Shown here in pieces: positions 6,487 to 46,055 of a stretch of 64,000 bases of DNA (positions are counted from its first letter, which is position 1; every line of letters starts with the position of its first letter). Origin of the DNA: Caldifarciminota bacterium. Its GTDB lineage: Bacteria; Hydrothermota; UBA3072. The notes under the pieces were generated by a model. That model was not told the origin of the DNA and did not search any database. It saw nothing but the letters and a program-made list of their open reading frames with translations. The stretch spans positions 1 through 64,000 of the forward strand of contig JAFGHJ010000048.1 in the NCBI GenBank assembly GCA_016930175.1. Direction: 5' to 3'. The position numbers and the translations under genes were made by a program.

Positions 6487-6738
6487 TTACCCGGAGATTA
6501 CGTTTATTATTTTTTTCCCGTGTCTTGTACCAAACTCTACTTTTCCGGATTTCAAAGCAAAAAGCGTATCATCTCCGCCCCTGCCGACATTCCAACCCGG
6601 GTGGTACTTGGTCCCTCTCTGGCGAATCAGTATGGTTCCTGCCAGGACCTCTTCACCTCCAAATCTCTTGACTCCAAGAAACTTCGGACCTGAATCTCGA
6701 CCATTTCGTGACGAACCAACTCCTTTCTTATGTGCCAT
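6487..6738 (-). CDS. rpmA: 50S ribosomal protein L27
   Basis: 83 aa, the usual length. Begins [16 protein letters not shown] and carries [22 protein letters not shown] and the [11 protein letters not shown] region, all diagnostic of L27, whose N-terminal tail reaches the peptidyl-transferase centre. The protein starts directly at MAHKKG, without the cleavable N-terminal extension found in Firmicutes. AAAGGAGG precedes the ATG. It follows rplU by 27 bp, the conserved rplU-rpmA pair. Confidence 0.98.
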
Positions 6739-6765
6739 CTCTAATCCTCCTTTATATTGCTTTCT

Positions 6766-7347
6766 TTATTTCTTTTCTTTCTTTGTTTTACTTGTTGTCT
6801 TTTTTGCTTTAGCAGAAGATTTTTTGGGCTTGGCAGCCGTTTTCTTTTTCTTAGTGGTTTCCTTTTTGGGTTTTGCTATTTTCTTAGTTGTTTTTTTAGC
6901 TGCAGTAGTTTTCTTCTTTGCCTTGCTTGTAGCCTTCTTCTCCTCCGCAGTTGCTTTCTTAATCTCAGCCTTAACTACCGGTTTCTTCTCTGCTTTCACT
7001 TCATCTTTTTTGCTTACTTTTTTAGTCTCCGCCTTTCCTCCGAGAATAATATCCTTAATTTCTATCTCGGTATAGGTTTGACGATGTCCCCGTGTCCTTT
7101 TATATCGGTTTCTTTTTTTAAACTTAAAAACAATTATCTTCTTATATCGACCGTGGTCAACAATTTTCGCTGCAATAGAAGCCCCCTCTATATAAGGTTG
7201 GCCGATTTTCGTATCACCATTCTTAACAAGTAAGACTTTGTCAAAAGTAACTTTTTCCCCAATTTCACTATCCAACCGGGGAATTTTCAACTTTTCTCCC
7301 GGACTTCCAAGATACTGGAATCCTTTAGCCTCAAAAACTGCAAACAT
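6766..7347 (-). CDS. rplU: 50S ribosomal protein L21 with long Lys/Ala-rich C-terminal tail
   Basis: 193 aa from the ATG at 7347, which has AAGGAGG five bases upstream; the longer open frame to 7413 has no such site and is not used. Residues 1-103 are a normal L21 ([43 protein letters not shown]). Residues 104-193 are an added low-complexity tail made of K, A, T, E with motifs such as [18 protein letters not shown], like histone-H1/AlgP-type tails. Such a tail would be disordered and highly basic at the ribosome surface. Its function is unknown; it nearly doubles the protein. Confidence 0.95.
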
Positions 7348-7369
7348 TAAAATCCTCCTTAAAGTTGTA

Positions 7370-7771
7370 TCAGTTGCTTCCCTCTGGAATCGTACTTTCC
7401 TCTGGAAGCACACTACCTTCTTCCGGAATTAAACCCTCTGAAGTACCCTCTTCCGGAATTCCCTGTTCAAAGGGTACTCCTACTCTCTCAGGTAATTTTT
7501 CTCTTAATCTTTCCTCTATACTTCCTTTATCGCTTCCAACCGACCTGGGTACTCTGATAGCTATTGTTGTCGAAGTAAGGAAAAACAGAATAGCAAGCAC
7601 TATGGTTACTTTCCGCAGAAGAATCGAAGCCCCTCTGCCTCCAAAGAAAGACCCGCCACCAGCTCCGCCAAAGACAGAACTCATACCTGCACCCTGAGAC
7701 TGCTGCATAAGAATAACTAAAATTAAAAGAACTGCAAAAAATACATGTAGCGTAACTAGAAAGCCTAACAT
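7370..7771 (-). CDS. secG: protein-export membrane protein SecG
   Basis: 133 aa. Two membrane helices (about 2-22 and 52-70) flank the typical loop QQSQGAGMSSVFGGAGGGSFFGGRG, residues 23-47. SecG helps the SecYEG channel during SecA-driven export. The last 60 residues are a Glu/Pro/Gly-rich tail (repeated IPEEG/LPEES wording), longer than in most SecG. The ATG overlaps the end of tpiA by 7 bp, with GGAG inside the tpiA terminal codons, so translation is coupled. Placement after tpiA is common in bacteria. Confidence 0.93.
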   Translation of the reverse strand: MLGFLVTLHVFFAVLLILVILMQQSQGAGMSSVFGGAGGGSFFGGRGASILLRKVTIVLAILFFLTSTTIAIRVPRSVGSDKGSIEERLREKLPERVGVPFEQGIPEEGTSEGLIPEEGSVLPEESTIPEGSN

Positions 7772-8514
7772 TTAATCTCCTTTGCTATATTTATCATATC
7801 CGAAAAACCATCAACATCAAGAGACGCACCTCCAATAAGAGCCCCGTCTATATTTTCCTGGCAAATAAAATCCTTAATGTTATGCGTTTTAACAGACCCG
7901 CCATACATTATTCTAATACTCTCACCTTTAGCGCCTAACTTTTCTCTGATTATCGAATGCATTTCTTCAGCATCTTCCGGATGGGGGGTCTTGCCTGTCC
8001 CAATAGCCCAAACTGGTTCATAAGCAACGGCAAGATTTTCAGCATCGTATTCAATGCCCAAGAGTCCCTCTTCTATCTGCTTATCCACTACTTCCTTTGC
8101 CTTGCCTTCTTCTCTCTCTTCTTCAGTTTCACCAACACATATAACAACTTTTAATTGTTTCTGCAAGGCCTTTTCTACCTTCTTCTTGACTCCGGCATTT
8201 GTCTCACCAAAATAGGTTCTCCTCTCGGAATGACCTATTATTACCCAATCTACACCAATTTCTTTAAGAAAAACCGATGATACTTCACCGGTATATGCGC
8301 CTTCATCTTCCCAAAAAAGATTCTGCGCCCCTACACTAATTCCGCTTCCCTTAAAGATCCTGACAGCATCCACAAGAGAAGTAAAAGGAGGCGCAAGGAA
8401 TACATCAACACCCTCCGTTGACACTTTCTTTTCTTTAAAAAGATTAGCAAATTTAATCGTCTCTTCAACACCTTTATACATTTTCCAATTACCGCCGATA
8501 AGCAACTTTCGCAT
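7765..8514 (-). CDS. tpiA: triosephosphate isomerase
   Basis: 249 aa from the ATG at 8514 (GGGAGG upstream); the frame can be read from a TTG one codon earlier but that is not needed. Interconverts dihydroxyacetone phosphate and glyceraldehyde 3-phosphate. Catalytic residues are all present: Lys11 in NWKM, His95 in IIGHSERR, Glu166 in AYEPVWAIGTG, and the phosphate loop YGGSV and GALIGGASL. It lies 11 bp after pgk in the gap-pgk-tpiA-secG run. Confidence 0.98.
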   Translation of the reverse strand: MRKLLIGGNWKMYKGVEETIKFANLFKEKKVSTEGVDVFLAPPFTSLVDAVRIFKGSGISVGAQNLFWEDEGAYTGEVSSVFLKEIGVDWVIIGHSERRTYFGETNAGVKKKVEKALQKQLKVVICVGETEEEREEGKAKEVVDKQIEEGLLGIEYDAENLAVAYEPVWAIGTGKTPHPEDAEEMHSIIREKLGAKGESIRIMYGGSVKTHNIKDFICQENIDGALIGGASLDVDGFSDMINIAKEIKC

Positions 8515-40628: not shown

Positions 40629-41147
40629 TTAATATAAAAACTTCTCAAAGCGATCTTTTTTAGCCTTACAGATAGGACAAACTCCCGGCGGCTCGTCCCT
40701 CCCACAGAGATATCCGCAAACCTTACAACGCCATATGGGTTTAGACAACTTCGATTGCCCTATCTTATTTTCCCTCGACACCTCTTCGATTTTTTCTCTT
40801 ATCTCTTTAGGTGGTCTTCTCTCCGGTATCTTTCTAACTTCTCTTTCTCCGTCTACGACCGCCTGCGAAACATAAAGCCCGCAATAGCAGGTATCATAAT
40901 CGTTTATATCCGCGTCTCTGTAATCACATGGGCATATAATATCCAGGTCTTCATCCTTTTTCGCGGACGCGAGACGGCACGGACACGCCCAGTATCCGTA
41001 TCTTTTTTCATTAACGAGCAAACCTTCCACCAAATCTCTCGTGAATTCTTTCTCGGGATTTAAATGATAACCGGAAGCTTCCGCATCTTCATCTAATTTT
41101 TTATACAGTTTATCGATTTGCTCTTTTGAAATATCGATTTTATCCAT
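40629..41147 (-). CDS. ferredoxin:thioredoxin reductase catalytic subunit fused to rubredoxin
   Basis: 172 aa. Residues 1-95 are the FTR catalytic chain with three Cys pairs: Cys55/57 (ACPCR), Cys72/74 (CPCD), Cys87/89 (CYCG), supplying the [4Fe-4S] cluster and active disulfide. Residues 136-172 are a rubredoxin-like domain with Cys141, 144, 157, 160 ([18 protein letters not shown]). It would pass electrons from ferredoxin or rubredoxin iron to a disulfide partner, most simply the glutaredoxin-like protein encoded directly upstream with an 8-bp overlap. Confidence 0.92.
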
Positions 41148-41424
41148 TGTTTATCTTACCCCTTATTTCTTCTTCATCATAGCCTACCACACAATCTTTA
41201 TCATTAATAACGAGTGTCGGAAAAGAGCACAAAGGATTCCATTTAGTTACTTCTCCTTCGGCTTTTTCCTGGTCTTCCTCATTCAGAAGATCGACATCTA
41301 CATAGTGATAATCGACATTTAGGCTATTTAACAGTTTTTTTACTTTTTTACACCACACACATGTGGATATAGCATAGAGCATTATTTTCCCCTTTTTTTC
41401 TCCTTTGACATGCTTTACATCCAT
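41140..41424 (-). CDS. glutaredoxin/thioredoxin-like protein
   Basis: 94 aa. Glutaredoxin fold with active site Cys22-Val-Trp-Cys25 ([10 protein letters not shown]), cis-Pro in [10 protein letters not shown] and GYDEEEI near the end. The first 14 residues are an extension. Gene overlap with the FTR-rubredoxin protein makes it the probable substrate or electron acceptor of that reductase (NrdH/thioredoxin-like role), a known arrangement in several anaerobes. Confidence 0.9.
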
Positions 41425-41444: not shown

Positions 41445-41843
41445 CTAGACATTACCGTTTATCAAGTCTTCTAAAGTAAAAGATTGTAATGTTTCTCGCA
41501 AGGTCACGCCGACTTTTTTCCACACATTTTTTGCCTTACATTGACTATACTTTTTACAAACCGATGGAGAATCTATACAAACTACCGGATTCAAAGAACC
41601 CTCGAGGACATCTACTATCTCTCCGCAATTTATATTTTCAGGAGCTCTGCCAAGAATATAACCCTCTTTTACTCTTACTATTAATCCCCTGGCCTTCAAA
41701 GATGATATAATATGGTCAAGATATTTCATAGAAACATCCAACCGTTCGGCTATCTCTTTCAAAAGGATCGGTCTATCTTTATAGCAAAGCGCGAGCTCTA
41801 TCATTGCTCTTAAACCATATCTTGTTTTCGATGAAAATTTCAT
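41445..41843 (-). CDS. Rrf2-family transcriptional regulator (IscR-like)
   Basis: 132 aa. N-terminal winged helix MKFSSKTRYGLRAMIELALC, LLKEIAERLDVSMKYLDHIISSLKARGLI and wing VKEGYILGRAPE. Three cysteines 89, 96, 102 (VVCIDSPSVCKKYSQCKAK) match the Fe-S ligand pattern of IscR (Cys-x5/6-Cys-x5-Cys). It probably senses Fe-S status and controls its own operon; the 28-bp palindrome at 44664-44691 is the obvious candidate site. Sits in the middle of the operon. Confidence 0.9.
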   Translation of the reverse strand: MKFSSKTRYGLRAMIELALCYKDRPILLKEIAERLDVSMKYLDHIISSLKARGLIVRVKEGYILGRAPENINCGEIVDVLEGSLNPVVCIDSPSVCKKYSQCKAKNVWKKVGVTLRETLQSFTLEDLINGNV

Positions 41844-41893: not shown

Positions 41894-42145
41894 CTAACTA
41901 ACAGCAACCACTTCTTTGACTTCTGCAATCTGCTGTTTCAGGTAACGTTCTATGCCGGATTTCAAAGTTATTTTAGATAACATACACCCCGAACAAGCTC
42001 CAGTCAACCGGACTTTCACAACTCCTTTCTGTGTAACTTCGAGGAGTTCAACGTCTCCTCCGTCAGCCCGGAGCGAGGGTCTGATATCTTTTATTGCTTC
42101 CTCGACCTTTTCTTTTATTTTACTTTCTTTTTTTTCTTTTATCAT
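41894..42145 (-). CDS. nfu: NifU C-terminal-domain (Nfu) Fe-S carrier
   Basis: 83 aa. Single Nfu domain: IRPSLRADGGDVELLEV and GACSGCMLSKITLKSGIERYL with cluster cysteines 51 and 54. Carries [4Fe-4S] clusters to target enzymes. 14 bp after iscU and 50 bp before the Rrf2 gene; AAAGGAG precedes the ATG. Confidence 0.93.
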   Translation of the reverse strand: MIKEKKESKIKEKVEEAIKDIRPSLRADGGDVELLEVTQKGVVKVRLTGACSGCMLSKITLKSGIERYLKQQIAEVKEVVAVS

Positions 42146-42159
42146 TTTTACTCCTTTTT

Positions 42160-42795
42160 TTAAACTGAAAAATTAACAATAACTTCATCTATATCCCACA
42201 AACTTTCCAACTTTTCCACTATTTCTTCCCTGATGTTGTTGGCGAACTGATGCTCTTCGGGAAGATTTACCGTAACCTCTGCGGTTCCATTTTCCACCTT
42301 AACACCAGTTATCAAATTGGTTCTTACAAGGTCTAAACCCGCAAGAGGATTCATGACATGTTTCAGCCTCTTCAGTACTATTTCTTTCGTTGTAGGAATT
42401 TTTTCCTTGATAAGACCGTGTTTTTCCTCATAATTGGCAATTGCAGCCCGCAGTCCGTCAACAGCCAGCACCGAACAATGAGTTTTTATTTTGGGCAGTC
42501 CTCCAAGCGCATCCGAAGCCTGCTTCCAGCTTATGTTTTTAGCTTCTTCGAGGGTTTTTCCCTTTGCCAATTCCGTTATTATGGAACCGGTTGCAATGTT
42601 CGAAGCACAACCATAGGATTCGAATTTTATATCCTTAATCTTCTTTGTATCTTCATCAACTTTAATATAAACCGAAACCATATCTCCGCATGCGGGACTG
42701 CCTTCTGTAGATTTCCCATCGGGATTTTCAATACTTCCTACATTTCTGGGATTCCTAAAATGCTCAAGAACTTTTTCACTGTATGGGAATTTCAT
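42160..42795 (-). CDS. iscU: IscU-type scaffold fused to a MIP18/DUF59-like domain
   Basis: 211 aa. Residues 1-127 are an IscU scaffold with Cys36, Asp38 (PACGDMVS), Cys63 (YGCASNIATGS) and Cys107 (KTHCSVLAVDGL), all ligands present. The LPPVK-type chaperone motif is replaced by LPKIK. Residues 133-211 (TTKEIVLKRLKHVMNPLAG, GTAEVTVNLPEEHQFA, WDIDEVIVNF) look like the MIP18/SufT (DUF59) domain used in Fe-S delivery. IscU is normally about 125-150 residues, so this is a fusion joining scaffold and delivery functions. Two bases after iscS. Confidence 0.88.
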   Translation of the reverse strand: MKFPYSEKVLEHFRNPRNVGSIENPDGKSTEGSPACGDMVSVYIKVDEDTKKIKDIKFESYGCASNIATGSIITELAKGKTLEEAKNISWKQASDALGGLPKIKTHCSVLAVDGLRAAIANYEEKHGLIKEKIPTTKEIVLKRLKHVMNPLAGLDLVRTNLITGVKVENGTAEVTVNLPEEHQFANNIREEIVEKLESLWDIDEVIVNFSV

Positions 42796-42797
42796 CT

Positions 42798-43973
42798 TTA
42801 CCTCACTTTCTCTCCTTTAAGAGGGCTAATTACTCTCAACTGTCTTACTATTTCCTTAAGAGCTTCTACCATCTTGTCTACATCTTCCTTTTTATTAAAT
42901 CTTCCGAAAGTAAAGCGAACAGAACCGTGAGCTCTCTCATGATCGCCTCCGATACCCAGTATTACATGGCTAGCTTCGAGAGATTTACTAAAACACGCAG
43001 AACCTGTACTCACGGCAAAACCCTTCATATCCAGATGTAGCGTTATAGATTCCCCCTCAACGTAGTGAAAAGTTATATTAGCATTATGCGGAATTCTTTT
43101 CTCCGGATGACCATTCGGAGTGGTATAGGGTATCTCATTCTGAATTTTTTCTACAAGATAGTCCCGCAAATTTCTAAGTGTTTCGTTTTCTTCTTTTGTT
43201 ACCAACTCGACTGCTTTAGCGAAACCAACTGCCCCGGGAATATTCTCAACGCCGGCTCTCAAATCAAACTCCTGAAATCCGCCGTCGATCCATTTAGCCA
43301 CGGGAACCCCTTCTCGCACAAACAGAGCTCCAATTCCCTTTGGTCCGTGAAACGTATGCGCGGACACCGTCAGCAAATCCACACTTAACTTGCTCAAATC
43401 AAAAGGAATTCTCATAAAAGAATGTGTAGCGTCAGAATGAAAAATTACATTATTTCTGTCGCATATTTCGCCAATCGTTTTTATATCCTGAATCGTTCCT
43501 ATCTCCTGATTGGCGTGCTGAATCGAAACCAATATTGTTTCTTTGCTTATTGAATCTTTAAGCTGATTCAGGTCAACAAGGCCATATTTATCTACGTCAA
43601 GGTAAGTAACTTTAATTCCATTCCTTTCAAGAGACTTTGCACTGTTCAGCACTGGGAAGTCCTCGATTTTGGATACAATTATGTGTTTCCCTTTTTTACC
43701 TGAAAGATTCCTGACAACTCCTTTAATAGCAATATTACTCGATTCCGTACTCCCTGAAGTAAAAATCAACTTTCCTTCGGGATTCCCCAACGCTGAAAGT
43801 ATTTTTGCTCTCGCTAAATCTAAAGCTTCCCTTGCTTCAATTCCAAGGGAATATCCGAATTCGGAAGTTGCTACAGCATAAACATCAAAAAAGTACGGTT
43901 TCATTGCCTCCAGAACCCTTTCGTCCATTCTGCTGGAAGCTGCGTTATCAAAATAAATCGTCTTTTTATCCAT
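42798..43973 (-). CDS. iscS: cysteine desulfurase (IscS/NifS-like), divergent subgroup
   Basis: 391 aa PLP enzyme that takes sulfur from cysteine. PLP Lys212 in SAHTFHGPKGIGAL, sulfur-carrying Cys327 in STGSACFSK with a short loop, and SVRFTFGRFNKKEDVD. Departures from IscS: the stacking His of the T/K-EH-AV motif is Asp105 (KIEDFPVL), and the Gln of DAxQ is His184 (SDATHSF). These may define a separate subgroup rather than loss of function, since the rest is intact. GAGGTGA precedes the ATG. Confidence 0.9.
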   Translation of the reverse strand: MDKKTIYFDNAASSRMDERVLEAMKPYFFDVYAVATSEFGYSLGIEAREALDLARAKILSALGNPEGKLIFTSGSTESSNIAIKGVVRNLSGKKGKHIIVSKIEDFPVLNSAKSLERNGIKVTYLDVDKYGLVDLNQLKDSISKETILVSIQHANQEIGTIQDIKTIGEICDRNNVIFHSDATHSFMRIPFDLSKLSVDLLTVSAHTFHGPKGIGALFVREGVPVAKWIDGGFQEFDLRAGVENIPGAVGFAKAVELVTKEENETLRNLRDYLVEKIQNEIPYTTPNGHPEKRIPHNANITFHYVEGESITLHLDMKGFAVSTGSACFSKSLEASHVILGIGGDHERAHGSVRFTFGRFNKKEDVDKMVEALKEIVRQLRVISPLKGEKVR

Positions 43974-43985
43974 ATCTAATCACCT

Positions 43986-44405
43986 CTAAATAAACAGAGT
44001 TACGTCTGACTCCATTGCCTCTTTAATGTAAGTACCCACACCGCAATAGTTACTTATCACATCAGTTCTTAAAGATTCCTTCTTTACGCCCATTATGTCC
44101 ATTGTCATGTCGCAGGCGAGAATTTTTCCTCCTAGCTCGACGAAATCGGAAAGCATTTTATCGAGAGAAGCGACACCAGCCCTCTTCATCTTACGTCTTA
44201 TCATCCACCTGCCGAGTCCGAACATGTTCATTCTCGAAAGAGGAGCCCTGTTCAATTGCCCTTTCCTAAGACGCATGAGCCCCCAGAAAGTAAAAAACAT
44301 TGAAACTTCCATACCCATGGAAAGAGCTCCCAGACCGATAATAAAAGCGCTGTACACTTTATCTAAATCTCCGCTGTGAACGATTAAAGTTGCCTTCTTA
44401 TTCAT
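43986..44405 (-). CDS. DsrE/DsrF/DrsH-like sulfur-relay protein
   Basis: 139 aa. KKATLIVHSGDLDKVYSAFIIGLGALSMGMEVSMFFTFWGLMRL is the DsrE_2-type start. A basic loop (LGRWMIRRKMKRAG) follows, then DMLSDF-like helix, ILACDMTMDIMGVKKESL with Cys98, and ISNYCGVGTYIKEA with Cys121. Members of this family accept and hand on persulfide sulfur, and commonly neighbour TusA. Lies 9 bp after tusA and 12 bp before iscS. Likely cytoplasmic or membrane-associated. Confidence 0.85.
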   Translation of the reverse strand: MNKKATLIVHSGDLDKVYSAFIIGLGALSMGMEVSMFFTFWGLMRLRKGQLNRAPLSRMNMFGLGRWMIRRKMKRAGVASLDKMLSDFVELGGKILACDMTMDIMGVKKESLRTDVISNYCGVGTYIKEAMESDVTLFI

Positions 44406-44414
44406 ATTATCCCC

Positions 44415-44636
44415 CTATTTACGAATCCTTATCGACCATACACCACCTTCTTCCTCGACCCCCAGAAGCTCAAGCCCCATAGACTTTACCGCCATAGGTA
44501 TTTCTTTCTTCGAAGATTGATGAGTTCCCGTAATTTCTACCACATCACCTTTAGAAGCTTTACGCAAAGCCTTTCTTGCTTCAACGAGAGGAACGGGACA
44601 CGTTTCATTTATGCAATCAATTTTTATTTCAGCCAT
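44415..44636 (-). CDS. tusA: TusA-family sulfurtransferase
   Basis: 73 aa from the ATG at 44636, which has GGAGG 5 bases upstream; the frame is open from a TTG four codons earlier but that overlaps the site. IDCINETCPVPLVEARKAL contains the persulfide Cys13 in CPxP, and GDVVEITGTHQSSKKEIPMAVKSMG is the rest of the fold. Moves sulfur between IscS-like desulfurases and acceptors such as DsrE proteins. First gene of the twelve-gene run. Confidence 0.93.
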   Translation of the reverse strand: MAEIKIDCINETCPVPLVEARKALRKASKGDVVEITGTHQSSKKEIPMAVKSMGLELLGVEEEGGVWSIRIRK

Positions 44637-44663
44637 TTTATCCTCCAATTTTAAATTGCCTTA

Positions 44664-44691
44664 TTCTACTAATTCTATAGAATTAGTAGAA
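44664..44691. promoter_or_regulatory. 28-bp perfect palindrome, candidate Rrf2 operator
   Basis: TTCTACTAATTCTA followed by its exact reverse complement, no spacer. It begins 8 bases after the -10 box of the minus-strand promoter, so a bound dimer would cover the transcription start of the tusA operon. Confidence 0.75.
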
Positions 44692-44699
44692 CTACCAAT

Positions 44700-44727
44700 A
44701 ATATACTACTATTCTTTATTTTGTCAA
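44700..44727 (-). promoter_or_regulatory. promoter of tusA-ldhA operon
   Basis: Minus strand TTGACA (44727-44722), 16 bp, TATATT (44705-44700). Confidence 0.78.
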
Positions 44728-46002: not shown

Positions 46003-46026
46003 GAAAAACTAAGATAAAGACTAAAA

Positions 46027-46055
46027 GAGGGCTGTTTTCACAGCCCTCTTTTTTT
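46027..46055 (+). terminator. rho-independent terminator of hsp20
   Basis: GAGGGCTG (46027-46034), 6-base loop, CAGCCCTC (46041-46048), then seven T. The clearest intrinsic terminator in the window. Confidence 0.93.

Follow-up and report, generated by a model that had tools for sequence, protein, structure and literature searches.

A perfect 28-bp palindrome at the start of a WOR-3 Fe-S assembly operon as a putative double operator for the operon's own Rrf2 regulator

Introduction

What recognizes a perfect 28-bp palindrome placed at the start of an operon for sulfur transfer and Fe-S assembly, and is its full symmetry the unit that matters? The question arises in a 64,000-nucleotide stretch of DNA, here called the window, from a genome of the phylum WOR-3 (Caldifarciminota). 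The operon has the gene order tusA-dsrE2-iscS-iscU-nfu-rrf2-grx-ftrB, and the palindrome lies at its predicted start. We compared the site with related promoters, and the encoded Rrf2 protein with characterized regulators of its superfamily.

Results

A loopless palindrome at the predicted transcript start

The features of the locus, in the order of transcription, are the following.

44722 to 44727, minus strand: -35 hexamer TTGACA (sequence and promoter scan)
44700 to 44705, minus strand: -10 hexamer TATATT, 16-bp spacer (sequence and promoter scan)
44664 to 44691, no strand: 28-bp perfect palindrome TTCTACTAATTCTATAGAATTAGTAGAA, putative double Rrf2 operator
44641 to 44646, minus strand: ribosome-binding site GGAGGA before tusA (sequence)
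44426 to 44636, minus strand: tusA-like sulfur carrier, PF01206 (profile match)
43986 to 44405, minus strand: dsrE2-like sulfur carrier, PF13686 (profile match)
42798 to 43973, minus strand: iscS/nifS cysteine desulfurase (profile match)
42160 to 42795, minus strand: IscU/NifU_N scaffold fused to a C-terminal FeS_assembly_P (DUF59) domain
41894 to 42145, minus strand: Nfu-type NifU C-terminal domain protein
41445 to 41843, minus strand: rrf2, Rrf2 regulator and proposed ligand of the palindrome (PF02082, E=4.6e-28)
41140 to 41424, minus strand: glutaredoxin-like protein, same operon as rrf2
40629 to 41147, minus strand: ferredoxin:thioredoxin reductase catalytic-chain-like domain with a C-terminal rubredoxin-like domain

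The sequence-only reading from which this work started had claimed a 28-bp perfect palindrome at 44664-44691, and the claim was borne out: the arms TTCTACTAATTCTA and TAGAATTAGTAGAA form 14 pairs with 100% complementarity and a 0-nt loop, and the site reads the same on both strands. It ranks strongest among the perfect inverted repeats of the 64-kb window and stands far above chance. Gapless palindromes with 14-bp arms are expected 0.0004 times per 64 kb and 0.016 times per genome, first-order Markov simulations of the window (n=60) never gave arms longer than 11 bp, and a simulated AT-rich intergenic stretch reached 14-bp arms in 2 of 20,000 cases. That the repeat is a product of chance, a terminator or a recombination site is hardly credible. 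The region is AT-rich, as a chance origin would favour, but the expectation per window is minute, the half-sites are conserved in other genomes (see below), and the scan found no terminator-like site.

The promoter scan scored TTGACA-16-TATATT on the minus strand at 11/12, confirming the promoter that had been proposed 8 bp before the palindrome; an alternative -10, TATTAT with an 18-bp spacer, also fits. The promoter points leftwards and the palindrome begins 8 bp past its end, so transcription is predicted to start no more than a few bases from the palindrome edge. Relative to this promoter, the site shows the geometry of Rrf2-type operators, namely an NAC-N7-GTN inverted repeat overlapping the -10/start region, 8 bp past the -10.

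In the 2.34-Mb genome the palindrome is a single copy when up to 3 mismatches are allowed over its central 24 bp. At this threshold, the proposed genome scan for another copy beside Fe-S genes came up empty, and the sole other exact 12-nt half-site, on C17, lies inside coding sequence.

Two side observations concern the surroundings. The IscU-FeS_assembly_P fusion (42160-42795) is also seen in iscU of loci L061 and L057; the fused IscU of L057 is equal in length to that of the window, and its C-terminal part aligns by eye. Elsewhere in the window, a strong hairpin at 46023-46052 (13 pairs, one mismatch, ending in TTTT) sits directly after a small heat-shock-protein-like gene and resembles an ordinary terminator.

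The conserved unit is probably a 19-bp box

Four sites were aligned: those of the window, of genome G005, of G031/L061 and of L058. G005, from the same family and another genus, carries TTCTACCAATTAGATAGAATTAATAGAA just past the promoter of a tusA-dsrE2-iscS operon, and an additional TTCTA 9 bp to the left extends its half-sites over 37 bp; no Rrf2 gene was found in G005, whose contig stops inside iscS. G031/L061, from another WOR-3 family, has TTCTACCAATTCAATAGAACAAGTAGAA 8 bp past a TATATT and before rrf2-iscS-iscU. As rrf2 comes first there and the site is kept, the site tracks the rrf2-iscS unit, not tusA. L058, from Aerophobetes, has TTCTACAAATATAATAGAAATAGTAGAA before rrf2.

In the alignment, TTCTAC (columns 1-6), ATAGAA (14-19) and TAGAA (24-28) are invariant, while columns 11-13 and 20-21 vary. 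These invariant half-sites define two boxes, A in columns 1-19 and B in columns 10-28, which in the window are as follows.

44673 to 44691, minus strand: box A, TTCTACTAATTCTATAGAA, TTCTA-N9-TAGAA, promoter-proximal
44664 to 44682, minus strand: box B, TTCTATAGAATTAGTAGAA, offset 9 bp from box A

The boxes read TTCTAC-N7-ATAGAA and TTCTAT-N7-GTAGAA, each with one T-A step replacing C-G beside the N7. Box A is exact in the three related operators as well (two WOR-3 genera, one Aerophobetes), which keep the outer TAGAA of box B; its inner TTCTA is exact in the window alone. These three promoters thus combine one exact box with an extra TAGAA exactly 9 bp on and a weaker left half of box B, and 4-5 of the 14 palindrome pairs are lost. 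The perfect symmetry of the window site arises from two exact boxes with matching spacers. Judged from these sequences, the conserved unit would be a 19-bp box (TTCTAC-N7-GTAGAA-like), present twice here at a 9-bp offset, and not the 28-bp symmetry.

The same alignment bears on two other explanations. One is a single Rrf2 dimer on the outer arms (TTCTAC-N16-GTAGAA), a new and longer operator in which the inner repeats are incidental. We regard it as unlikely: the outer TTCTAC and TAGAA are indeed invariant in 4 of 4 operators, but the inner TAGAA is just as invariant and the 19-bp spacing recurs in many related promoters. The other is a role in RNA, with a 12-bp hairpin at the mRNA 5' end that makes the message more stable or influences translation. 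The closeness of the predicted start to the palindrome and the strong fold of the window leader (-15.1 kcal/mol, z -4.1) speak for such a role. It is nevertheless very unlikely, given a fold of -12.6 kcal/mol in the window against -5.0, -3.0 and -1.8 kcal/mol in three related operators, the loss of 4-5 of 14 pairs in relatives whose DNA half-sites are invariant, and the absence of an Rfam match.

A phylum-wide search for the doubled pattern returned convincing promoter sites at three WOR-3 operators only; a candidate in G021 was rejected, as it lies in coding sequence. In a group of only six promoters, five (window, G005, L061, L058 and L083) have the TAGAA repeat at exactly 9 bp, compared with none of the other 75 Rrf2 promoters. 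Not every member of the group has the double layout: L059 has one box with the TAGAA repeat at 8 bp instead of 9, and L083 is without an exact left half-site. The Rrf2 proteins of the window, L059, L061, L083 and L058 cluster in a tree with moderate-to-weak support (80-88% bootstrap), and Bacteroidota Rrf2 sequences share the larger tree group.

The gene neighbourhoods in the group differ. In L083 and L059, rrf2-iscS is followed by an apparent quinolinate synthase gene (nadA), and in L083 then by iscU, unlike the window operon. In L058, two ORFs at 6563-8096 that resemble an IS element (transposase-like and accessory, named by eye) sit between rrf2 and a cysteine-synthase-like gene.

The operon's Rrf2 protein has three cysteines and a shortened wing

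The genome holds one Rrf2 gene over the Pfam cut-off, the operon's own, which is the sixth gene of the operon and lies 2.8 kb from the palindrome. The protein scores above the curated cut-offs for PF02082 (98.4 bits, cut-off 30) and TIGR00738 (105.9 bits, cut-off 73.3). Its three cysteines, C89, C96 and C102, occupy IscR-like positions, in agreement with what the sequence-only reading had claimed for the operon's Rrf2 protein, and are invariant among five aligned relatives. Scores fall below the NCBIfam equivalog cut-offs for IscR (TIGR02010, 83.0 bits versus 207.6) and CymR (NF047409, 91.3 bits versus 195), and the protein is therefore filed only as an Rrf2-superfamily regulator.

The recognition helix, SMKYLDHI, places K40, D43 and H44 where IscR has S40, E43 and Q44 (PMC9338935, PMC9973013). 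In the IscR complex the wing glycines and Arg59 touch DNA (PMC9338935), and the canonical Rrf2 wing motif is Lx3Gx6Gx2GGx2L (PMC9338935). The window protein departs from this motif (LKARGLIVRVK---EGYIL) and still exceeds the curated superfamily cut-offs. An AlphaFold model (pLDDT 96), which matches CymR, IscR and NsrR structures, has a tight hairpin where the wing loop would be, strands 55-58 and 61-64 being joined by a turn of two residues. Three wing residues are missing in the window, L061 and L059 proteins; the L058 wing is full-length. The idea that a short wing is always paired with a double site was rejected, as L059 combines a short wing with one box and L058 a full wing with an extra half-site.

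Other rrf2 promoters carry one box with this geometry

For Rrf2 relatives from many phyla, the last 150 bp before rrf2 were inspected. A subset has a clear single box there, mostly TCCTA-N9-TAGGA, and one WOR-3 rrf2-iscS pair has the single box TCCTACTAAATAAGTAGGA. The features particular to the window group are the TTCTA half-site variant and the extra half-site. That the change from CC to TC is explained by E43 to D43 alone was rejected, as L087 combines D43 with TCCTA. Further N7-box variants, GTCTACCAATTTAGTAGAC and GTCCACTAAAATAGTGGAC, lie just upstream of rrf2 in L137 and L104 (Planctomycetota and Myxococcota), whose Rrf2 proteins have YLH in the recognition helix.

These promoters help to decide whether the palindrome might instead be the operator of another regulator, such as a cysteine or sulfide sensor, with rrf2 nearby by coincidence. 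The distance of 2.8 kb to a sixth-gene rrf2 in the window and the failure to recover an Rrf2 in G005 would agree with that explanation. Against it, the site directly precedes rrf2 in L061, L058 and L059, where the neighbours differ, and many Rrf2 genes have one box of this geometry in front; we consider it improbable.

The 19-bp box was also sought across the genome to which the window belongs. The 4 exact boxes found elsewhere all lie within reading frames and provide no second promoter copy, and boxes with one mismatch occur at 101 places versus 72 for the control, too near background to be informative. The missing second promoter copy counts against the operator reading, but it fits a purely local autoregulator.

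Discussion

Taken together, we think it likely that the palindrome is an autoregulatory operator, composed of two overlapping 19-bp boxes, for the operon's own three-cysteine Rrf2 repressor. The choice of ligand follows from comparison across genera and with another phylum, where promoters of related Rrf2 genes have the same half-sites in the same place. The earlier suggestion of a new Rrf2 operator therefore holds in part: the comparison supports the operon's own Rrf2 as ligand, but the unit is the 19-bp box, and as this box has a known Rrf2 operator spacing (the GAC-N7-GTC of RisR), the site is a variant and not a wholly new operator.

By analogy with RisR, a cluster-holding Rrf2 dimer, its cluster presumably ligated by the three cysteines, would bind over the start site and block RNA polymerase; under a shortage of sulfur, iron or clusters, apo-Rrf2 would release the site and the operon would be made. 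The signal might plausibly also be sulfur supply, given that the rrf2-iscS-iscU operon of C. perfringens rises under cysteine limitation (PMC2940859). The second box could be co-occupied with the first, giving cooperative and tighter shut-off, or offer an alternative register for one dimer.

Steric hindrance may make it difficult for two dimers to interleave with an offset of 9 bp. We put forward only tentatively the further idea of a distinct and partly short-winged Rrf2 lineage (WOR-3, Aerophobetes and unclassified bacteria) with half-sites every 9 bp and two dimers interlocked on overlapping boxes. No description of such a DNA-binding mode for Rrf2 proteins was found in the literature searched. 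For Fe-S assembly in an uncultured phylum, the locus offers a candidate regulator and operator that can be tested as a pair, and the rule TYCTA-N9-TAGRA is a simple way to find targets for related Rrf2 proteins. A structural question also arises: how does an Rrf2 protein without the usual contacting wing bind DNA, and do overlapping boxes compensate?

Comparison with known Rrf2 systems

CymR of Bacillus and Staphylococcus provides the best Foldseek match (2y75), its equivalog model scores best after the superfamily model, and the sulfur/cysteine gene setting is shared. In contrast to the window protein, B. subtilis CymR shows no cluster cysteines in the alignment, and its regulon differs.

E. 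coli IscR shares the Rrf2 fold, the three cysteines, the linkage to iscS-iscU and the autoregulatory position; the best PDB sequence match is Thermincola potens IscR (4cic). The IscR type 2 motif has the spacing CC-N13-GG, and the window box has the same spacing, with TC/GA instead of the CC/GG of the E. coli consensus. The sequence-only reading, which had found no match to the E. coli IscR type 1 or type 2 consensus, was thus correct for these letters; the spacing is that of known Rrf2 operators. The proteins differ as well, with K40-D43-H44 in place of S40-E43-Q44 and a wing without the RG..GG residues.

RsrR of Streptomyces venezuelae resembles the present case in that one promoter carries two full sites for an Rrf2 regulator. 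Its two 11-3-11 sites lie side by side, 1 bp apart (PMC5015018), and do not overlap, whereas the window boxes do. A literature search that covered only a minority of subscription papers found no overlapping double Rrf2 sites.

An experimental parallel in function and spacing is RisR of M. xanthus, an Rrf2 repressor of Fe-S assembly operons. Its footprint lies on an imperfect palindrome, GAC-N7-GTC, that spans the -10 and start site, and in its holo form it represses isc and suf (PMC9973013). The N7 spacing equals that of the window's TAC-N7-GTA, and the residues of RisR at the IscR base-contact positions also depart from IscR. The two systems differ in that one box per promoter has been described for RisR, with other half-site letters and two operons as targets, and in that RisR retains the canonical wing glycines and Arg59.
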